Source: Marinitoga piezophila KA3 (lineage in GTDB: Bacteria > Thermotogota > Thermotogae > Petrotogales > Petrotogaceae). From it: DNA of 64,000 bases. This document shows, piece after piece, positions 8,068 through 39,815 of this stretch. Every line of letters starts with the position of its first letter. The first letter of the stretch is position 1. Position numbers and translations under genes: made by a program. The notes beneath the pieces are model-generated. The model was given only the letters and a program-made list of their open reading frames with translations. It did no database searches and was not told the DNA's origin. The DNA lies in NCBI RefSeq assembly GCF_000255135.1, contig NC_016751.1:2108001-2172000 (forward strand), written 5' to 3'.

Positions 8068-10652
8068 ATATCTTCCTCCGGTATTTCAAAATGGAATATT
8101 GTTCCTTTGTCTATTTCACTTTCGACATATACCTTTCCGTTGAGTTTTTCAACCTCTTTTTTTACAACATTTAACCCAATACCTCTTCCAGAGATTTCAG
8201 TAACTTCAACCTTTGTAGAAAAACCTTCATGGAATATTATATCAAAAATTTTCTCTTTGTCATAGGGGATATTTTTTCGATTGGCAACAGCAATTAATTG
8301 GTTTTTGTCAATACCGCTTCCATCATCTTCAATATCAATTTTCAATAGTCCGTCTTCTTTAAAAATACGTATTGTAATATTTCCATATTCAGTTTTCCCT
8401 TTTTCAATACGTAATTCGGGTATTTCAATACCATGATCTATAATATTTCTAAAAACATGAACAAGTGATTTTATAAATTCAAAATACTTATCCGGATCGA
8501 TATATACATCTTCATCCTGTATAATTTGAGGATAGTTTATAACTTTACCTAAGCGAGTTGCTAATTCTTTAGAATATTGCAAATAAGGTTTTAATAAATC
8601 ATCGATTTTTTTGTATCTTAATTTTCGTATATCCTTTAATATTTTTTTAGCCTTTTCATTTTCAAAGTATTTTAATACTTTATTTTCTAATTCTATAATC
8701 TTGCTTTTTGGTATTTTAAGTTTTTCCTCGTCATTTAAAAATTCCTCACCCAGAGCCTCTTTCAAAATATCTAATTCAGAGGATAACTTTTCATAAATGT
8801 TGAATTTTTCAAATAATAGTTTTTCAAAGTATTTTTGAGAAAATGTTTTCTTTTCAATAGCCTTTATAATCTCATTTTCGATTAAATGAAGAGTATATGA
8901 GATTTGAGTTAGATAAAATTGAGCAAAAACTCCTTTATATGTATGAATGGCTCTGTGTATTTCAAAATTCTTTTCATTTTTTGAATCTTTAGATTCAAAA
9001 ATCTCAATATAACCATGTGATATAAAATATTTGAAATCCTTTAAGTTATACATAAAAGCATCGTAATTTTGAATAACAGTTATAATTTTATTTAAATTTT
9101 CTCGTTCTGTTTGAATTGCCTGTTCAAGTGCTTTTTCGTTTGTAATATCTTTTAATACAAGCATTATCTTTTTCTTATCATCAAAATCTATTTCTTTAAA
9201 TCTTAGATTATAATACTTTTCTTTAAATAATATTTCTTCAGGAAGAAATGAAAAATAAACTTCTTTTCTTAAAGAATCATTTTCAGCAAAAATATCTTCA
9301 AAAATACGTTTTACAAAATCCTTATCTTCAGAAAACAATAAATCCAGAATATTTTTCTTTCCTATATCTCCATCAAAAATCTTAAGGCACTCTTTACTAT
9401 ATGTATCATCAATTATAAAATTCTCGTCAAAAGCCAGAAATCCTTCACCAGAATTATCAAGTAACATCTTAATCTCTTTTGTGCGTTTTGATACTTCTTT
9501 GTCAAGTTCTTCGTTCCATATTTCAAGAATTTTGTTTTTTACAGAAAGTTCAAGGTTTAAATCCTTTATATTTTTCAAGGACATAATAATCATTGAATTT
9601 ATTAATATAAAAATGGACCACTGTATTAAAGGCCTTTCCCATTTTATTATTCTAAAATCCCCTAAAATTTCATAAATGGTAAAAATAGAAACAGTAACAA
9701 TTGAAAAAGAAAAAATATAAGCTTTTCTATCTTTAAATCTGGAAATTCCAATATACATATAGTACATCATCAGCATTATATCAATAATCATCAATAAATA
9801 TAGCAATAATACATATTTTACATAATAATTTGGTTCTATTCCTGTAAAAATCTGAATTAATGTAATTCCTGCAAAAATAATAAGATGAGCCTTTATGAGA
9901 ATTCGAATATATTTTTTTGATGAATAGTCAAATATATTATAAAAAAATCCCAGAATGCCAATTGGAGATAAATACTTTCCAATATCCATTAAATATGCCC
10001 AGAAAACAGGATTATCATAAAAGTATTTAAAGGTTTGATTTTGTCCCATAATAAATGTTGAAAGAGAAATAGAAAAGATTCCAAGATATAAAAATAATTT
10101 TCCTTCATTTAAGCTTTTATTCATTGTCCAGAAATAAATGGCAAAAATAAAAGCCAAAAATCCAATAAAGATATTAAATGCTATTAAAATCAATCTATCC
10201 GATTCATAAACTATTTGATGAGTTAATAATTCTTTTTCGTTGCCAAGTAAAAATTCTCCGAAAAAACCAACATCCCTTTTTTTAGAAGTTATCTTTAAAA
10301 GAAGATATTTGTTCTGGAAGTTATCAGGGATTTTAAAAATGCTTTTAGGGCTAAAATAACTTTCTTCAGAAATATTGCTATATATTACCTTATCACCAAT
10401 ATAAAGGGTAAAAAAATTCAGGATTCCGCGTATATAAATAGCAGGTTCCTCGAAGGTCACATCTGGAAGCTTATAACGAAGCAAAAGTTCTTCGCCCTTA
10501 TTTTCAATGGGGATACCGGGATTTTCATATTTGTGCCATTCTTTTTCGGATTCCCATTTATATTCCCAGCCATCATATAACTTAATATATGAGAAAGCTG
10601 AAGTGAAAAATAATAAAAACAAAAAGAAAAATAAGGAATATTTTTTTAACAT
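8064..10652 (-). CDS. Membrane CheA-like histidine kinase (7TM sensor, PAS, internal Hpt, ATPase)
   Basis: A sensor kinase with this order: signal peptide (1-21); an extracytoplasmic beta-rich domain to about residue 150, resembling 7TMR-DISM extracellular sensors; about seven membrane helices (roughly 155-375); coiled coil; PAS-like domain (about 400-510); an Hpt-like helical domain with phospho-acceptor His570 in the motif IHTYKG; and a CheA-type ATPase (about 715-862) with N-box around Asn735, DDGSGID and SGRGIGLNVV. There is no CheW-like domain and no classical HisKA domain, so phosphorylation probably runs through the internal Hpt as in CheA. The downstream CheY-like gene overlaps by four bases. 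The ligand is unknown; related 7TM sensors often bind carbohydrates. Start supported by GGGGG five bases before ATG. Confidence 0.85.
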   Translation of the reverse strand: MLKKYSLFFFLFLLFFTSAFSYIKLYDGWEYKWESEKEWHKYENPGIPIENKGEELLLRYKLPDVTFEEPAIYIRGILNFFTLYIGDKVIYSNISEESYFSPKSIFKIPDNFQNKYLLLKITSKKRDVGFFGEFLLGNEKELLTHQIVYESDRLILIAFNIFIGFLAFIFAIYFWTMNKSLNEGKLFLYLGIFSISLSTFIMGQNQTFKYFYDNPVFWAYLMDIGKYLSPIGILGFFYNIFDYSSKKYIRILIKAHLIIFAGITLIQIFTGIEPNYYVKYVLLLYLLMIIDIMLMMYYMYIGISRFKDRKAYIFSFSIVTVSIFTIYEILGDFRIIKWERPLIQWSIFILINSMIIMSLKNIKDLNLELSVKNKILEIWNEELDKEVSKRTKEIKMLLDNSGEGFLAFDENFIIDDTYSKECLKIFDGDIGKKNILDLLFSEDKDFVKRIFEDIFAENDSLRKEVYFSFLPEEILFKEKYYNLRFKEIDFDDKKKIMLVLKDITNEKALEQAIQTERENLNKIITVIQNYDAFMYNLKDFKYFISHGYIEIFESKDSKNEKNFEIHRAIHTYKGVFAQFYLTQISYTLHLIENEIIKAIEKKTFSQKYFEKLLFEKFNIYEKLSSELDILKEALGEEFLNDEEKLKIPKSKIIELENKVLKYFENEKAKKILKDIRKLRYKKIDDLLKPYLQYSKELATRLGKVINYPQIIQDEDVYIDPDKYFEFIKSLVHVFRNIIDHGIEIPELRIEKGKTEYGNITIRIFKEDGLLKIDIEDDGSGIDKNQLIAVANRKNIPYDKEKIFDIIFHEGFSTKVEVTEISGRGIGLNVVKKEVEKLNGKVYVESEIDKGTIFHFEIPEEDI

Positions 10653-26659: not shown

Positions 26660-26682
26660 AAAGTAAATAGGTGAACAAGGAT

Positions 26683-26812
26683 TCTTCCTGTATAATCCCG
26701 GGAATATGGCTCGGGAGTCTCTACCAGACAGCCGTAAACTGTCTGACTACAGGAAGAGAGATAATATAATTGTAATAAAGCATCTCTCTTCCTGGGGGAT
26801 GCTTTTGTTTTT
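26683..26812 (+). promoter_or_regulatory. Guanine-type purine riboswitch with expression platform
   Basis: The aptamer has P1 (TCTTCCTGTA 26683-26692 with TACAGGAAGA 26748-26757), P2 (CCCGGG with CTCGGG), P3 (CAGACAG with CTGTCTG) and the loops ATATGG and CCGTAAA of the purine class. The specificity base in GACTA (26747) is C, which selects guanine/hypoxanthine rather than adenine. The 3' strand of P1 continues as CAGGAAGAGAGAT (26750-26762), perfectly complementary to ATCTCTCTTCCTG (26782-26794); this 13-bp antiterminator would break the terminator at 26777-26812. Ligand binding locks P1 and allows termination, so guanine should switch the downstream permease off. Confidence 0.97.
26777..26812 (+). 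terminator. Riboswitch-controlled terminator
   Basis: Stem AAAGCATC/GATGCTTT extended by TCTC/GGGG pairs (26777-26805, TTCCT loop) and followed by TGTTTTTT. Its left arm overlaps the antiterminator. Confidence 0.93.
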
Positions 26813-26933: not shown

Positions 26934-28274
26934 GTGGAAAAGTTCTTTAAGTTAAGAGAAAACGGTACAACTGTAACAACTGAGATCCTTGCTGGTATTA
27001 CTATTTTTTTAAGTATGGCCTATATTTTATTTGTTAATCCAAGTATTCTGGTAACAGCTATGGCTCCAGGTGCAGAAGTTGGAAGCGATGTTTATACTCA
27101 GTATTTTGGTGCTGTAATGGTTGCTACAATTTTTGGTGCAGCAGCTGCAACATTGGTAATGGGATTATATGCTAATTATCCATTTGCTCTTGCTCCAGGT
27201 ATGGGTTTAAATGCATATTTTACCTATACTGTAGTTTTGAAAATGGGGATTCCATGGCAGGTTGCATTGGGTGCAATTTTTGTTGAAGGTCTTGTATTTA
27301 TTTTATTAACAGCTTCAGGGGCAAGAAGTTTTGTTGTAAAAGCTATTCCTCAAAATATAAAATTTGCCACAAGTGCAGGTATAGGTTTATTTATCGCATT
27401 TATCGGTATGAAAAATGCAAGTATTATAGTAGCTAATCCTGCAACATTTGTTGGATTGGGAGATTTAACTGATCCAAATGCATTAGTTGCAATAATTGGT
27501 TTAATTATAACAGCTGTTTTATTTGCGTTAAGAGTTCCAGGATCGATTCTTCTTGGTATTATTATATCAACAATAATAGGTGCTTTCCCAATTTTTGGAG
27601 TTACACATTATCAGGGAATAATCGGAAAGATTCCTGATATTTCACCAACATTTATGAAACTTCAACTTTCATGGGGTGATTTAGTAAGTGGTTCATTCTG
27701 GGTTGTGGTATTAACCTTCTTCTTTGTTGACTTCTTTGATACACTTGGTACATTAACAGGTTTAGCTCAAAGTGCTGGATTTATAAAAGATGGAGAAGAC
27801 TTCCCAAGATCAAATAGAGCATATATGGCTGATGCTATAGGTACTTCTGTAGGTGCATTATTTGGAACTTCAACAGTTACAACATATATTGAAAGTGAAA
27901 CAGGTATTGCACAGGGTGGAAGAACAGGTTTAACATCAGTAACTGTAGCTGTATTAATGCTTCTTATGTTATTCTTCTCACCTTTAGGATTAACAATTCC
28001 AGCTGCAGCAACAGCTCCAGCATTGATTTTTGTTGGTTCTTTAATGTTGAAAAACTTAACAAAAATCAGATGGGAAGATACAACAGAAGCTGTTCCAGCA
28101 TTTATAACAATTATAATGATGCCATTGACATATTCTATTGCTAATGGTATTGCTCTTGGTTTAATAGCATATCCATTAGTTAAGGTATTATCAGGAAAAG
28201 GTAAGGAAATTCACTGGTTAAACTGGGTACTTGCAATTGCATTTGTATATTACCTTATATATTTACAACATTAA
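26934..28274 (+). CDS. Purine permease of the AzgA/PbuG type
   Basis: A cytoplasmic-membrane transporter of about 13-14 helices (446 residues) for guanine/hypoxanthine-type bases. Family marks seen: GITIFLSMAYILFVNP near the N-terminus, ALAPGMGLNAYFTY, FFFVDFFDTLGTLTG and TSTVTTYIESETGIAQGG. Substrate choice is supported independently by the guanine-type riboswitch in its leader. The start is the GTG at 26934, nine bases after AGGAGG; an ATG at 26929 is out of frame and opens only an eight-codon reading frame. Monocistronic, closed by a terminator. Confidence 0.94.
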   Translation: MEKFFKLRENGTTVTTEILAGITIFLSMAYILFVNPSILVTAMAPGAEVGSDVYTQYFGAVMVATIFGAAAATLVMGLYANYPFALAPGMGLNAYFTYTVVLKMGIPWQVALGAIFVEGLVFILLTASGARSFVVKAIPQNIKFATSAGIGLFIAFIGMKNASIIVANPATFVGLGDLTDPNALVAIIGLIITAVLFALRVPGSILLGIIISTIIGAFPIFGVTHYQGIIGKIPDISPTFMKLQLSWGDLVSGSFWVVVLTFFFVDFFDTLGTLTGLAQSAGFIKDGEDFPRSNRAYMADAIGTSVGALFGTSTVTTYIESETGIAQGGRTGLTSVTVAVLMLLMLFFSPLGLTIPAAATAPALIFVGSLMLKNLTKIRWEDTTEAVPAFITIIMMPLTYSIANGIALGLIAYPLVKVLSGKGKEIHWLNWVLAIAFVYYLIYLQH

Positions 28275-32753: not shown

Positions 32754-34352
32754 ATGAAAAAAAGCATAGTAACAATAATATTGCTTACATTGCTATCATT
32801 GACATTATTTGGCTTTTCTGGTGATTTAAATTATATATACGGTTATAATTTCTCAAATAATGCATCAACAACATTTAGTGGATTAAAAACAAATATTACA
32901 CTTGAAAATGAACTCGACAATCTTTATTATAGATTTTCAATAGATTTATTCAAATTAGACGGTTTTGATTTAAATGTTAACTCAGATATTGATACAACAC
33001 AGTATGCAGCATTGATGCCATCATCAGTATATTTAATATCTCCATCATTACCATGGGCATTATATGTACTCAATGAAGCATTTGCAGATATTTATCTTGA
33101 TGAAGCAACATTAAGAGTCGGAAGGTTTATTCCTGATAGCGGCAGTTCAACATTTTACAGCCCTTCAGTAACAATTCCAGCACATGATGGAATTAATCCA
33201 TTTGAACCATTAAAAACATTACCTGTAGATGGAATATATTTAAATGGTTACATTGCAGACTATACATATGAATTAACCTTTACACCAAAAACATATGACG
33301 ATATACCTTCATTTATACTATATCCAAAAACAATAAACGAAACAATAATTTCTGAAAACGCAGCAACACTTACATATGCATTTACAACAAAAAAAGAAGA
33401 AGTGGAAAAAGCAACAGAAGAATTAGTAGCGTTATTATTATCTAAAGGACTTACAGAGGCTCAGGTTAAATATTATTTATCAAATCCAGCTTCATTAACT
33501 GATTTAGGTTTTACACAGGAACAAATTGGCGAAATATATGCAGGTCAAACATTAATGACATTGCCAGATACATATGAAGTTAAGAATACCTATACAGAAA
33601 CAAAGGATATAGATGAATTATTGCCTGTAAATAGCGATTATAGCGCAAAGGTTTCAATGGATATTTCAAATTACAATATTAAATTAGGCTATACTCATGA
33701 CCATTATCACTTTACAGTTCCAGAAACAATAGAAATAAATTATTCAAAAGATGGAACAGGAACATCAAAAACAACATTATACAGACCATATAGAAATGTA
33801 GTAACATTGGATTTCCAGGGTGTGTCATATTTCTTTGATTCTATAGGTTATCATGGCGAAGCAGCATTAATTATGCCAGAAAAAACATATGTAAAAGTAG
33901 ATACAACATATTATGTTCCAAATCCTGAAAATCCAACAACAACAGTTCAGACAAAAGATTCAACAGAAGTGGACATTTTTGAAAAGTATTATGTAAAGGC
34001 TGTAGGAGGTATCGAATATACACACGGAGAAGACTTTACATTGGGAATTGAAGGATTTAATGGCTTGCCAACAGAGGAATTAAAAGGACATCTTTCATTT
34101 GGAAGCGATATGTATATAAAAGCAAAGATAAACAATGTATCCTTTGAAGGTCTTGGATTAGCAGCGTTTTCAAAAATCAATGATAAATATGAACCTGGAT
34201 ATATGGGAACATTGAAAATTGCATATAATGGGATTGATAACTTCGAACCGTCAATACAGTTAAAATATGCATATGCCGAATCAGATCAACACTCATTAAA
34301 ATCAATGGAAGATTTAAATTCAATCTCATTAAATATAAAAATTTATTTCTAA
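32754..34352 (+). CDS. Outer-membrane beta-barrel protein of the RND operon
   Basis: A 532-residue exported protein with signal peptide (about 1-19, LTLFGFS), many Tyr-rich alternating strands, and a C-terminal phenylalanine (LNIKIYF), the typical signal for insertion of outer-membrane barrels. The family could not be named. A helical insert is seen around residues 220-265. As last gene of the RND/LolA-like operon it may be the outer-membrane receiver of the exported cargo. Ribosome site GGAGGCG. Confidence 0.82.
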   Translation: MKKSIVTIILLTLLSLTLFGFSGDLNYIYGYNFSNNASTTFSGLKTNITLENELDNLYYRFSIDLFKLDGFDLNVNSDIDTTQYAALMPSSVYLISPSLPWALYVLNEAFADIYLDEATLRVGRFIPDSGSSTFYSPSVTIPAHDGINPFEPLKTLPVDGIYLNGYIADYTYELTFTPKTYDDIPSFILYPKTINETIISENAATLTYAFTTKKEEVEKATEELVALLLSKGLTEAQVKYYLSNPASLTDLGFTQEQIGEIYAGQTLMTLPDTYEVKNTYTETKDIDELLPVNSDYSAKVSMDISNYNIKLGYTHDHYHFTVPETIEINYSKDGTGTSKTTLYRPYRNVVTLDFQGVSYFFDSIGYHGEAALIMPEKTYVKVDTTYYVPNPENPTTTVQTKDSTEVDIFEKYYVKAVGGIEYTHGEDFTLGIEGFNGLPTEELKGHLSFGSDMYIKAKINNVSFEGLGLAAFSKINDKYEPGYMGTLKIAYNGIDNFEPSIQLKYAYAESDQHSLKSMEDLNSISLNIKIYF

Positions 34353-34368
34353 TAAATAATATAAAATT

Positions 34369-34396
34369 AAAGTGCCGGGATTAATTCCGGCACTTT
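34369..34396. terminator. Bidirectional terminator after the RND operon
   Basis: Stem AAAGTGCCGGGA/TTCCGGCACTTT with one G-T pair and TTAA loop; followed by TGTTATTAAATTT on the plus strand. Confidence 0.85.
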
Positions 34397-34406
34397 GTTA
34401 TTAAAT

Positions 34407-36317
34407 TTAATCAGTAGTAAATATAATCTTTTCCAGTTCTCCTTTTATATTATCAAGATACCAATTAATCTTTAATAATTCTTCATCTGTAATACTTTCA
34501 TCATTTGTTGCTACTATATTACCATTTGCATCTATAATTGGACCGCTAAACACATCGTATTCCCTGTTTTTTATTGCGTTTTTCATTAATTCAATAAGAT
34601 TCTCGCTTTGTCCGGGAAGCAAATTCTTCGATTTAAATAATCTTACAATTTTTCTATCCATTCCATACCAGTACTTTCTTAAGTCCTTTAGATGTTTTGA
34701 AGTGGTAATTTCCCACTCATCATTCAAAAGTTTTTTTACAATTTTTTCATAAAAAGGTCCCCAATTCCATGTTGCAGCTGCTATATTGGTTTTTGGAAAT
34801 AATTCATCTTTTTTTATATTATATCCTATGCTATATACATTATGCTCATCGGCAATTTCCAGAGGAGTAAGAGTGTCGAGATTAGAAGCTATTATATCAT
34901 TTCCAGATTCTATAAGTTTCACCGTTAATTCCTTTTCTAATTCATAGTTTATCCATTCTTTTGTCCATTTTACGTCAATAACAGCTGATGGATTTACCAT
35001 TTTAACTCCTATAGCAAAAGCATTTAAATTCCTTACAAATAAAGGTAATGGATAAGGCGCAATAAACCCTATCTTATTTGATTTCGTCATAATTCCCGCT
35101 ATCATTCCTGTTAAAAATTGTGGTTGATATATTCTTCCGAAATATACAGAAAGATTTCTATAACTCTTATATCCCGCACAATTTAAGAACTTTACAGACA
35201 AATTATTTACAGCTGCTTTATAAGTTGAATCCATAAAATCAAAACTTGTAGTAATAATTAAATTATAATTCTTATCCACCAATTCTTGAATAACTTCATA
35301 TGAATCTTCTTTTTTTACATTCTCAATATATGTAGTATGAATTTTATCTTTAAACTTTTCTTCAATATAATTTCTTCCAATTTCATGAGCCTGAACCCAG
35401 GTGCTTTCATTAATAGTATTTCTATACACAAAAGCTATATTTAAAGTCTTTTCCTGTGCAGCTGACAATTTAATAAAAGAAGCTAACATTTCATGTAGTA
35501 AATCTTTTTTTTCTTCTAAATAAACAGTTTCAAGCTCCTTAATTAATTCTTTTACTCTTGCTTTTAATTCTTTGTCTAAAATATTATCTTCAATTCCATA
35601 TTTTTTTATATACTCAAGAAAGGCATCGCCGGTAGTCAAAGGAAGACTTTCGCCACCAAGAGAATGATACACCTTTCTAAAGTTCCAGTATATAAATTTT
35701 TCAAAATATTTGAAAAATTCATTTGGATTTTGATTGGTTTCCTTTATATGTTTTAAAAGGATTTCTTCAAGCTCTTTAAAGCTTCCTTCCCTTTTAAACC
35801 ATATCATATTTATTTTTGTTTTTTCATAAAAATCAAGAAACTCATAATAAATTCTGATTTTAGGGTCCAGTTCATCATATTTTGGTATTATCCTTCTTAC
35901 ATTTCCTACAATTGAAGGTGCTTCGAGATATTTTAAAACACTTGCTCGTTTATTTCCTTCTACAACATAAAAATAATTTAAAAATTCATAAGCTACTATA
36001 GGTTCCCTTATGCCTTCTTCCTGCTGTGCTTCAAAAAGATTCATCCATTTAATTGCAAATTCACTTGTTTCTTCTAACAATGGAAGAAAGTTTTTTGAAA
36101 ATGCACTTCTTCGGGATTCGTAATAAGTGCCTTTAACCTTTTTTAGCGGTATTTCTATTGTTCCAAGATATTGTTCTCCACTAATTTCATATTTTTGAAG
36201 CAAATGTTCTAAAGAAGGTAAATATCCATCTTTCCCTCTACCTTCCCAGTATAATAACTCCCTTTCCCCTTTTTTCTTTGCATTTTTGTATTCCTTTGCG
36301 CTGTCAAATCGATTCAT
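34407..36317 (-). CDS. ParB-like domain fused to a BMP (PnrA-like) binding domain, cytosolic
   Basis: A 636-residue protein without signal peptide or lipobox. The N-terminal part (about 40-140) resembles a ParB/sulfiredoxin-like domain: EGIREPIVAYEFL then VVEGNKRASVLKYL, where GNKR takes the place of the GxHR motif. A helical region follows (about 150-290). From about residue 290 the sequence looks like a basic-membrane-protein/PnrA family periplasmic-binding domain (LNIAFVYRNTINESTWVQAHEIGR, IITTSFDF, GFIAPYPLPLFVRNLNAFAIGV, NDIIASNLDT, AAATWNWGPFY). BMP domains bind purine nucleosides, normally outside the cell. Here it would be in the cytosol, suggesting a nucleoside- or nucleotide-sensing regulator or enzyme. 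It starts 19 bases after a phosphoesterase gene, in one operon. Confidence 0.78.
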   Translation of the reverse strand: MNRFDSAKEYKNAKKKGERELLYWEGRGKDGYLPSLEHLLQKYEISGEQYLGTIEIPLKKVKGTYYESRRSAFSKNFLPLLEETSEFAIKWMNLFEAQQEEGIREPIVAYEFLNYFYVVEGNKRASVLKYLEAPSIVGNVRRIIPKYDELDPKIRIYYEFLDFYEKTKINMIWFKREGSFKELEEILLKHIKETNQNPNEFFKYFEKFIYWNFRKVYHSLGGESLPLTTGDAFLEYIKKYGIEDNILDKELKARVKELIKELETVYLEEKKDLLHEMLASFIKLSAAQEKTLNIAFVYRNTINESTWVQAHEIGRNYIEEKFKDKIHTTYIENVKKEDSYEVIQELVDKNYNLIITTSFDFMDSTYKAAVNNLSVKFLNCAGYKSYRNLSVYFGRIYQPQFLTGMIAGIMTKSNKIGFIAPYPLPLFVRNLNAFAIGVKMVNPSAVIDVKWTKEWINYELEKELTVKLIESGNDIIASNLDTLTPLEIADEHNVYSIGYNIKKDELFPKTNIAAATWNWGPFYEKIVKKLLNDEWEITTSKHLKDLRKYWYGMDRKIVRLFKSKNLLPGQSENLIELMKNAIKNREYDVFSGPIIDANGNIVATNDESITDEELLKINWYLDNIKGELEKIIFTTD

Positions 36318-36336
36318 TATATCCTCTCCCCGAAAA

Positions 36337-37065
36337 TCATAAATAAATTTCCTTTAATTTAATCCTTCCATTTTCACCTTTTATTTTTACAATATCATGC
36401 AAATTTTCATCATATAATACATACTTAAAAGGAACTGTATTAAGTAAATATGAAATTCTCCCTTTATAATAAATCTTGAAATTTAAAGGTTTGCTGGTAT
36501 ATCTTGGATGAATATGGCCATAAAACCAGATTTTTGGAAAATATTTTAAATAAATTTTTGCTAATTGTTTTGAACCTTTGTGATAATCATCCATATCATC
36601 AAAAATATTTGAAATTCCCGGTGGCGAATGGGAGATAATCACATCCAGTTTTTTAAATCTATTTAAAAATTTGCTGCGATTTAACTTGTGGCAAAAAGCC
36701 CTTGCATCTTTTTCTTTAAAATGAAATGGTTTTTTACCATAAGATAATGCACCGGAAAATCCGGTGATATACACATCTTCAGAAATATTAAGAGCTGATT
36801 TGATATTTATAATTTCATTGTGGATTACTTTAATTCCTGTATAAATATTAGAAAAATCATTTAAATTTATATCTTCAAACTTTTTGAAATATTTTTTATC
36901 GTGATTTCCATAAATCATTAGGCTAATTTTAGGGGTTAATGTATTCAATAAAAAATCAAAATATCCCGGTGATAAATCACCGCAACCAAGCAAAATGTCG
37001 CATTTTTTAATTATTTTATGAATACTTCCCTTTTCTTCATCAGAAACTGCTACAATTTCTATCAT
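36337..37065 (-). CDS. Calcineurin-like metallophosphoesterase
   Basis: A 242-residue cytosolic phosphoesterase. Metal-binding motifs seen: GCGDLSPG, YGNHDKK, ISHSPPG and YGHIHPR. The first motif of the fold, normally DxH, reads SDEE here, so one metal-ligand His is missing; some branches of the family are built this way. The ATG at 37065 is chosen (GGGAG ten bases upstream) over a TTG eight codons earlier. It is the first gene of an operon with the ParB-BMP fusion, so its substrate may be a nucleotide linked to that protein; this is inference. Confidence 0.85.
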   Translation of the reverse strand: MIEIVAVSDEEKGSIHKIIKKCDILLGCGDLSPGYFDFLLNTLTPKISLMIYGNHDKKYFKKFEDINLNDFSNIYTGIKVIHNEIINIKSALNISEDVYITGFSGALSYGKKPFHFKEKDARAFCHKLNRSKFLNRFKKLDVIISHSPPGISNIFDDMDDYHKGSKQLAKIYLKYFPKIWFYGHIHPRYTSKPLNFKIYYKGRISYLLNTVPFKYVLYDENLHDIVKIKGENGRIKLKEIYL

Positions 37066-37583: not shown

Positions 37584-39815
37584 ATGATGAAAAGAGTCAT
37601 TGTATTTTTGATGGTGACAATAACTATGCTGTTTTTTATGGTATCCTGTTTTCACCAATCGGAAAAAGCAAAAGAAAATATTCAAACAATAGCACCAACT
37701 ACTCCAGAGCCTGTAGATGGAGCAAAAAATGTAAGTATAAATCACCTATGTTTGAAATGGAAAGGATCAATAGGTTCAGAAGGAGATATTATAAGTTATG
37801 ATGTGTATTTTGGAGAATCACAGAATTCGATGAAACTAGTTTATAAAGATTTAGATGAAACTTCTGTAAATATACCTGAACTTGAAAAAAGTAAAACATA
37901 CTATTGGAAAGTGGTTGCGAAAAATCGTAAAGGAGAGGAAATATCAAGTAAAGTATGGTCATTTACAACAGAAAAGAAAATGATTCAAAATGGTTATATG
38001 TTTGTGTATGGTGATGGTATGCTTGCAATATATGATGTAAATTCAGATCCGGAACATCCGGTATTTGTATCATCAATAGATTTGCCGCATGAATCTACAA
38101 GTTTCTGTTTTGACGGTGTATATTTGTATACCGAAGATCTTGATATAATTGATCTTAGCGATGTAAAAAATCCAGAATTAATAGAAAAGCATGATGGTGC
38201 GTATATGCCATCGGATGCTCGAGATATTGTAGTAACAAATGGTTATGCGTATATAGCAACTTTTGATAAGCTGGAAATAGTGGATATAAGCGATAAAACG
38301 AATCCTAAAAAGATAGGGATGTATAATACAGGATATGTTTATGGAGTATATGTAGATGGAAATTATGCATATCTTGCAGCTGGTATTTCAGGTCTGGAAA
38401 TAGTGGATATAAGCGATAAAGCAAATCCTAAAAAAGTGGGAAATTATGATACAGGGACAGCTTATGGAGTATATATAGATGGAAATTATGCATATGTGGC
38501 AGATTATGATAATGGGTTGGTAATAGTTGATATAACAAATAAAACAAATCCAATAAAGGTAACGTCAGTTTCAACAAATGGTTCTGCATATGAAATTATT
38601 GGTATAAAAATATATGGTGTTCAAAAAAATATATTTCTTGGAACTGAAGGAGGATTAAAAGCTGTTGATATAACTGATTTAAACAAAGCGTATCTTATTG
38701 ATTCATATTTTGATGATTTTTCAGTACATCATGGCGTGATCTCAGGTGATTATGCTTATGTAACAGGGGATGGGTATGCGGTAGTTGATATTAGTAATCA
38801 ATATAGTTTTGATAAACCAATTTATGAATATGTAGATAAATATTCAAATCCTTCTGCATATAGCGGTGTTCATGTGGATGATTATGATATTATTGCAGCG
38901 GGAGATAGTGGACTTGCTATATATAATGAAACAACAAGGAAAACATATACTCTTTATCTTGAAGGTACAGCAAGAGATGTTTTTGTAGATGATAATTATG
39001 CATATGTAGCAAATTATTATCATGGTTTGGAAATAGTGGATATAAGTGATAAAACGAATCCTAAAAAAGTAGGAGATTATGATCCCGGTTATTTTTATAG
39101 TGTAGAGGGAGTGTACGTGGAAGGAAATTATGCATATCTTGCAGCTGGAGATTCTGGACTTGTAATAGTAGATATAAGTGATAAAACAAAACCCAAAAAG
39201 GTAGGAAGTTATAATAATTTTACTAAGGTTTACGGAGTATATGTGGACGGTGATTATGCATATATAGCAGGTTTTGATAAAGGTCTGGTAATAGTGGATA
39301 TAAGTGATAAAACAAATCCAAGAAAAATAGGGGAGTATAATACTACTGGTTTAGGTTTTGCTATAGGAATATATGTGGATGGTGATTATGCATATGTTGC
39401 AAATAGTTATAAAGGCTTAGAAATAGTGGATATAAGTGATAAGACAAATCCAGTAAAGGTGGGGGCGTATAGTCCAGGTTATTTTTATAATGTAGAGAAA
39501 GTATATGTAGATGGGAATTACGCATATCTTGCAGCTGGAAATTCAGAGTTTGTAATAGTAGATATAAGCGACAAAACAAATCCAACAAAAATAGCAGCTT
39601 ATGATACAAAAAATATTTCTGAGATAACATCGCCTGTTAAAATTAAAAATTATGATTATGGTTATATTTATGATGTGAAATTTGATTCAAATAATAATGT
39701 TGTTTATGTTGCAGGGTCAATGGGATATATGCAGATAAATGTTTTAAAGCCAGATTCTGTAAGAATTAATTGGAAGATACCAATGTCAGATTTTGGGGCA
39801 ATTTTAATCTGGTAA
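37584..39815 (+). CDS. LVIVD-repeat lipoprotein with fibronectin type III-like domain
   Basis: A 743-residue exported protein with a lipoprotein-type signal (Cys22 in MVSC). Residues about 40-130 look like a fibronectin type III domain (EPVDGAKNVS, YDVYFGES, TYYWKVVAKN). The rest is a chain of LVIVD repeats of about 44 residues, each with GLxIVDISDKTNPKKV and then YGVYVDGNYAYLA, expected to form a beta-propeller on the cell surface. About nine copies are good and three degenerate. Proteins of this type are found in envelopes of many bacteria and archaea, with adhesion or binding roles suggested but unproven. Two ATGs overlap; GGGGG upstream fits either (37584 or 37587). Confidence 0.87.
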   Translation: MMKRVIVFLMVTITMLFFMVSCFHQSEKAKENIQTIAPTTPEPVDGAKNVSINHLCLKWKGSIGSEGDIISYDVYFGESQNSMKLVYKDLDETSVNIPELEKSKTYYWKVVAKNRKGEEISSKVWSFTTEKKMIQNGYMFVYGDGMLAIYDVNSDPEHPVFVSSIDLPHESTSFCFDGVYLYTEDLDIIDLSDVKNPELIEKHDGAYMPSDARDIVVTNGYAYIATFDKLEIVDISDKTNPKKIGMYNTGYVYGVYVDGNYAYLAAGISGLEIVDISDKANPKKVGNYDTGTAYGVYIDGNYAYVADYDNGLVIVDITNKTNPIKVTSVSTNGSAYEIIGIKIYGVQKNIFLGTEGGLKAVDITDLNKAYLIDSYFDDFSVHHGVISGDYAYVTGDGYAVVDISNQYSFDKPIYEYVDKYSNPSAYSGVHVDDYDIIAAGDSGLAIYNETTRKTYTLYLEGTARDVFVDDNYAYVANYYHGLEIVDISDKTNPKKVGDYDPGYFYSVEGVYVEGNYAYLAAGDSGLVIVDISDKTKPKKVGSYNNFTKVYGVYVDGDYAYIAGFDKGLVIVDISDKTNPRKIGEYNTTGLGFAIGIYVDGDYAYVANSYKGLEIVDISDKTNPVKVGAYSPGYFYNVEKVYVDGNYAYLAAGNSEFVIVDISDKTNPTKIAAYDTKNISEITSPVKIKNYDYGYIYDVKFDSNNNVVYVAGSMGYMQINVLKPDSVRINWKIPMSDFGAILIW
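38230..39610 (+). repeat. LVIVD coding repeats
   Basis: The DNA around TGGATATAAG(C/T)GATAAAAC recurs almost unchanged at about 38280, 38404, 39039, 39168, 39297, 39427 and 39561, with a spacing near 130 bases. The close DNA identity points to recent duplication or gene conversion among copies. Confidence 0.8.

Follow-up and report, generated by a model that had tools for sequence, protein, structure and literature searches.

The window analyzed here, a 64,000-nucleotide stretch of the Marinitoga piezophila KA3 genome (NC_016751.1), contains two neighboring genes on the reverse strand: one for a calcineurin-like metallophosphoesterase (MPE) and, downstream of it, one for a protein in which a BMP/PnrA-type domain follows an unusual N-terminal region, hereafter called the fusion (Table 1). 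A calcineurin-like phosphoesterase gene 19 bases upstream of the fusion had been claimed in the original prediction, and this was borne out: the two genes lie on the same strand, separated by 19 nt, and the MPE matches Metallophos (PF00149) with an E-value of 1.9e-10. The fusion gene starts at an ATG with GGGGAGAGGAT upstream of it. Its product is organized, in order, as an N-terminal helix, a ParB/sulfiredoxin-fold domain, a helical segment, a flexible linker, and a BMP/PnrA domain (residues about 292–632). In agreement with the claim that a signal peptide is missing, the most hydrophobic 17-residue stretch within the first 50 residues of the window protein averages only −0.26, and neither a signal peptide nor a lipobox was found in the 74 homologue rows checked. 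The convergent genes that end at 34352 and 34407 are separated by an inverted repeat, likely a two-way terminator. On the forward strand next to the pair lies a gene for a secreted, beta-propeller-like protein that begins with an Ig-like part and contains 'GVYVDGNYAYLA...LEIVDISDKTNPKKVG' repeats in many near-identical copies.

Table 1. Features of the fusion/MPE locus and of other elements in the window (window coordinates)
Feature	Position	Strand	Description and basis
Fusion gene	34407..36317	(-)	636 aa; ORF and ribosome-binding site, Pfam Bmp, models, homologues
MPE gene	36337..37065	(-)	242 aa from ATG; calcineurin-like metallophosphoesterase, partner of the fusion
Fusion residues 1–48	36174..36317	(-)	Long N-terminal helix (model secondary structure)
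Fusion residues 49–145	35883..36173	(-)	Predicted ParB-CTPase/sulfiredoxin fold domain (Foldseek, VIA-align 2)
Fusion residues 120–124	35946..35960	(-)	EGNKR; invariant P-motif, Box II, GxxR
Fusion residues 146–270	35508..35882	(-)	Helical segment with invariant Y157, Y158, F163, F213, A232
Fusion residues 292–636	34407..35444	(-)	BMP/PnrA-type periplasmic-binding-protein domain, nucleobase-binder subgroup
Inverted repeat	about 34368-34396		aaagtgccggga...tccggcacttt; likely two-way terminator
Secreted-protein gene	37584-39815	(+)	Ig-like start, beta-propeller-like, repeats
Purine riboswitch	26668-26769	(+)	Rfam RF00167, 91.5 bits
AzgA-like purine permease gene	26934-28274	(+)	Downstream of the riboswitch

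The N-terminal domain and its predicted fold

Up to residue 285, the fusion is without a Pfam match. Searches of Pfam and the PDB with the N-terminal domain sequence returned nothing significant, the top match being sulfiredoxin at an E-value of 1.8, and NCBIfam gave only weak, sub-cutoff matches. A structural model of the N terminus, built from 56 natural homologues, reached a mean pLDDT of 95.2 and confirmed a ParB-like domain, as the original prediction had supposed: residues 49–145 are modeled with the fold of the ParB-CTPase/sulfiredoxin superfamily. By VIA-align 2, this domain superposes on Noc with a Z score of 8.4 (rmsd 2.4 over 78 residues), on sulfiredoxin with 8.2, and on ParB-CDP with 8.1, followed by SbnI, SerK, PadC, and KorB; the best matches thus stand at a Z of about 8 across 78–81 residues. 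Foldseek gave a best E-value of 2.7e-4. Although these Z scores are middling, we accepted the ParB-like fold because nearly all the matches from both programs are ParB, Noc, sulfiredoxin, SbnI, or SerK, that is, members of one superfamily, and because the motif position agrees.

That motif is contained in the ParB-like set noted from the sequence at the outset, VVEGNKRASVLKYL, which occupies residues 118–131 and is followed by a full BMP domain, as had been stated. Its core, E120-G-N-K-R124, is invariant in all 56 homologues and presents the GxxR of the Box II P-motif; it aligns with SGCHR of sulfiredoxin, at an E-value that is not significant. Gly63, Thr64, Arg69, Phe73, Pro79, Lys90, Trp91, and Arg142 are also invariant, and residues 49–145 form the most conserved part of the fusion, with a mean pairwise identity of 0.59 as against 0.41 for the BMP domain.

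With ParB, Noc, and KorB, the fusion shares the fold of residues 49–145, a Box I-like helix (residues 86–100) with its loop (EGIR[ED]P), and the Box II GxxR (GNKR), but several hallmarks of these proteins were not found. The canonical ParB model PF02195 matched none of the 56 homologues at E-values up to 1. The position of the catalytic glutamate in the ParB motif GERR (Glu93 in M. xanthus, mutant entry 7o0n), mapped by motif, holds the invariant Asn122. In place of the Box III phosphate motif ENxxR, the next helix carries the invariant Tyr157, Tyr158, and Phe163. A ParA-binding motif is missing, the ParB-HTH Pfam family has no match in the fusion (segment 146–270 having been searched as part of the protein), and the N-terminal region is fused to a BMP domain. 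Likewise, the fusion shares with sulfiredoxin, SbnI, and SerK the fold (Z 5–8) and a motif position corresponding to GxHR, but it is a far larger protein than any of these, and the catalytic cysteine of sulfiredoxin (G-C-H-R) is replaced by asparagine. Box III is often missing from orphan ParB-type proteins, and in some of them ATP or GTP takes the place of CTP as the bound nucleotide, a specificity that is not predictable from sequence (PMC12704722). The ParB-type domain of the fusion probably binds an NTP. As a separate observation, of 21 genomes from the window's order, only one contains ParB_N (PF02195), which suggests that most of these bacteria lack canonical ParB.

The fold matches also bear on another reading, namely, that the pair is a small-molecule kinase and phosphatase, the ParB-type domain phosphorylating, in the manner of SerK or SbnI, a ligand bound to the BMP domain, be it a purine nucleoside or another compound, and the MPE reversing or finishing the reaction. 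SerK, SbnI, and the SerK-like protein 1vk1 are indeed among the matches (Z 5–7; Foldseek probability 0.9–1.0), and the phosphoesterase partner is conserved. Nonetheless, we judge this reading improbable. No acidic residue is invariant in residues 63–73, the segment after the first strand, to which the catalytic glutamate of SerK can be mapped only inexactly, and the linker suggests separate domains and not one shared active site. A domain serving as an NTP-binding switch is the interpretation that we prefer, and it is developed below.

The phosphoesterase partner

In the MPE, the motifs GD, GNHD, H, and GHxH are intact, and motif I has changed from DxH to DxE. Among 74 sequences with a residue at this position, 62 carry DxE and the others Ala, Pro, or Val; DxE is a sequence mark of this MPE subfamily. 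Among solved structures, MPPED2 and RNA lariat debranching enzymes come closest to the MPE profile, though the matches are weak (E 6e-7 to 1e-6). The suggestion in the original prediction that the MPE acts on the ligand of the sensor protein is still a guess.

The weak resemblance to MPPED2 and RNA lariat debranching enzymes is consistent with a second alternative, in which the fusion regulates RNA or nucleic-acid processing: its ParB-type and helical parts would bind nucleic acid under nucleotide control, the purine level would be the signal, and the MPE would be a nuclease-like phosphodiesterase. Foldseek alignments to Noc do run beyond the CTPase fold. DUF402 is a family that includes nucleoside-diphosphate phosphatases. 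In 12 related Clostridial loci (e.g., positions 8544-9023 of locus L055), a DUF402 gene lies on the same strand as the fusion gene and either overlaps it or comes directly before it, and the DUF402 family also includes the ribonuclease RNase W (PMC11602121). Against this, the DUF402 link is confined to that group of related loci, and the helical segment 146–270 has no ParB-HTH family match and gives only nonspecific helical matches with VIA-align 2. We give this alternative the same low standing as the kinase/phosphatase pair, below that of a purine-responsive switch.

Conservation and distribution of the gene pair

The gene-neighborhood comparison showed conservation of the pair in several phyla; neither of the two outcomes that would have refuted the original prediction, a missing ParB-like domain or an unconserved pair, came about. 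In each of the 20 other Petrotogaceae genomes, the MPE gene lies directly upstream of the fusion gene, with differing flanking genes. At the Clostridia and Spirochaetota loci, the MPE gene is adjacent in 67 of 76, here downstream of the fusion and either convergent with it (46 loci) or on the same strand (21 loci); of the 9 loci without an adjacent MPE, 7 belong to genomes that have exactly one unlinked copy. Since the linkage is kept across three gene orders, it argues for a functional bond rather than a merely inherited order. In an even sample of 196 genomes of the class Clostridia, the fusion was present in 18, the MPE in 20, and both in 17 (hypergeometric P 1.6e-20, ignoring phylogeny), and the three MPE matches without a fusion were weaker (E 1e-50, 1e-20, and 1e-18 versus 1e-80 or better). 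Among 103 Thermotogota genomes, the same 21, all Petrotogaceae, hold both genes. Homologues were sampled via related sequences, so these counts are not independent events, and fragmented metagenome assemblies account for some absences; the conservation of the pair is far beyond chance. A survey of the neighboring genes, which looked for transporters, toxin-antitoxin pairs, and purine clusters, showed the MPE to be the only generally shared neighbor, apart from DUF402 in the 12 loci mentioned above.

In the Clostridia, the fusion occurs in 30 of 80 genomes of the L093 family (Lachnospiraceae), 14 of 61 of the L124 family (Faecalibacterium), and 20 of 79 of the L116 family (Clostridium), with Faecalibacterium prausnitzii among the carriers. 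It is nearly always present as a single copy per genome. In nearly all genomes, the N-terminal domain sits in a frame that spans at least about 600 residues, indicating that it is essentially always fused to a BMP domain. In Marinitoga lauensis (locus L050, 8989-10898), the fusion gene is split into a ParB-type frame (274 aa) and a BMP frame (317 aa) beside an intact phosphoesterase gene, and an interrupted fusion gene was also seen at locus L046; the split in M. lauensis is either a pseudogene or a long-read assembly error.

The original prediction had also considered a defence-like effector, for which we found little support. An anti-phage defence or conflict role could be read from the patchy occurrence in the three Clostridia families and from the resemblance of the MPE to PDC-S10, a candidate phosphoesterase model of PADLOC (E 3e-12 to 4e-17). 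However, all 21 Petrotogaceae genomes carry the fusion, almost always as a single copy in ordinary chromosomal surroundings, and no defence genes are found among the conserved neighbors. PADLOC matches of the fusion itself are confined to the short GxxR motif (E 0.001–0.008 over 25–38 residues), none being full-length. We therefore hold a defence role to be very unlikely; a gene found in all Petrotogaceae and patchily elsewhere looks physiological.

The BMP domain and its candidate ligand

Bmp (PF02608) matches residues 293–584 of the fusion with an E-value of 6.9e-44, and the fold comparison assigns the domain to the periplasmic-binding-protein type-I fold. As Bmp is the sole significant Pfam match, the protein could be taken for an ordinary substrate-binding protein of an ABC transporter, but with 74 homologue rows free of export signals, about 285 conserved, cytosol-type residues ahead of the domain, and no conserved transporter permease alongside (no BMP-type ABC permease occurs among the conserved neighbors of the fusion), this reading has next to no chance of being right.

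The nearest solved relatives of the BMP domain by sequence are AtzT (6pi5; E 1e-51) and a Brucella protein (3s99; E 2e-48), both well ahead of nucleoside binders, and the fold comparison agrees (E 3e-26 and 2e-24, respectively). Purified AtzT contained bound guanine (KD 0.11 μM, i.e., 110 nM); the protein binds adenine with a KD of 2.5 μM and does not bind GTP, and its guanine contacts are Tyr45, Ser97, the backbone of Phe98, Glu165, Trp194, Asn218, and Asn220, while 3s99 was modeled with adenine (PMC6834077). The fusion BMP domain is about 29–30% identical to both proteins across its length, and its mapped pocket positions agree fully in most Petrotogaceae outside Marinitoga: in AtzT numbering, Trp45, Tyr47, Ser97, Glu165, Trp194, His218, and Asp220 are the same as in 3s99 in 12 of the 14 Petrotogaceae rows from outside this genus. 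In Marinitoga, including the window protein, the mapped pocket carries E165L and H218N, and pocket positions vary in the Clostridia homologues. The secreted f2 proteins were left out of this comparison because of their gappy alignment. The pocket residues make a purine-type ligand likely for the fusion family, with less certainty for the window protein itself; given the Marinitoga substitutions and the varying Clostridial pockets, the ligand may differ by lineage, or binding may have been lost in places. The earlier proposal of an intracellular nucleoside or nucleotide sensor thus stands in part: an intracellular purine sensor or regulator fits, whereas the BMP domain is nearer to the nucleobase binders AtzT and 3s99 than to nucleoside binders.

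Purine genes adjoin the pair at two loci. In the Petrotogaceae genome of locus L038, the MPE, the fusion, an adenine deaminase (TIGR01178), and an AzgA-like purine permease form one run in which successive genes are 1, 28, and 14 nt apart. In Clostridium acidisoli (locus L088), a purine riboswitch, a xanthine permease, and a xanthine phosphoribosyltransferase (xpt) precede the fusion on the same strand; this was the single adjacent purine riboswitch in a survey of 16 loci plus the window. Two loci of about 96 is close to chance level, and we regard the purine-salvage linkage as suggestive, though not statistical, support for a purine role. The window has its own purine riboswitch about 6 kb away from the pair, which belongs to the AzgA-like permease gene downstream of it. 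This permease is 56% identical to the homologue that shares a gene run with the pair at L038; as it is not kept near the pair in other Marinitoga, it was rejected as a member of the module.

Discussion

We tentatively propose, at somewhat less than even odds, that the two proteins act together in the cytosol, the fusion as an NTP-binding switch that responds to purines and the MPE as its dedicated phosphoesterase. The lack of an export signal and the near-obligate MPE support this proposal, together with the modeled ParB-type fold with its GxxR motif and a BMP domain of the nucleobase type as judged by sequence and fold comparison. Purine binding, NTP binding, their coupling, and control of the MPE are what we infer. 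In such a switch, the BMP domain would close on a purine base or nucleoside in the cytosol, as in PurR/LacI-type regulators with the same fold class, and its closure would alter nucleotide binding by the ParB-type domain, which would hold an NTP despite missing the canonical ParB catalytic glutamate. The altered state of the ParB-type domain could then recruit or regulate the MPE, which would cleave either a phosphodiester or a phosphomonoester, with a nucleotide as the likeliest substrate; the end effect would be to adjust purine salvage or a nucleotide signal. The poorly predicted linker and a pTM of 0.56 leave the arrangement of the domains uncertain. A more specific version, in which Clostridia and Petrotogaceae share an undescribed two-protein module whose cytosolic BMP domain, once loaded with a purine, flips a non-canonical NTP switch of the ParB type that controls the dedicated MPE, possibly an enzyme turning over a signaling nucleotide, is rather doubtful.

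Parts of this design have precedents. PurR/LacI-type regulators likewise use a type-I periplasmic-binding-protein fold as a cytosolic ligand sensor, a likeness of concept; their binding-protein family is a different one, and in the fusion a long helix and a ParB-type nucleotide fold stand where an HTH would be. AtzT and 3s99 are exported transport proteins, unlike the fusion, whose BMP domain is cytosolic, lies behind a ParB-type domain, and in Marinitoga has altered Glu165 and His218. The combination of a ParB fold with a small-ligand sensing domain recalls the ParB-CTPase fold fusions of Kaljevic et al. 2025, such as the archaeal CBS fusions (PMC12704722). That survey searched with PF02195 at its gathering score, which puts the fusion family outside it, and its main text does not mention BMP, PnrA, or a phosphoesterase (PMC12704722). 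Our literature search, in which subscription papers were thinly covered so that an existing description is possible, found none of the fusion family or of the gene pair.

With just a Bmp match in Pfam, fusion genes are likely annotated as transporter substrate-binding proteins. They form a distinct cytosolic family with a predicted ParB-type fold that is invisible to the standard PF02195 model and with a near-obligate phosphoesterase partner, carried by all Petrotogaceae searched and by roughly a quarter to two fifths of the sampled genomes in three Clostridia families. These results suggest that Petrotogaceae and many gut Clostridia have an undescribed switch that responds to purines inside the cell, and they make a question testable: are there ParB-fold switches that are fed by small-ligand sensors and act on enzymes rather than on DNA?
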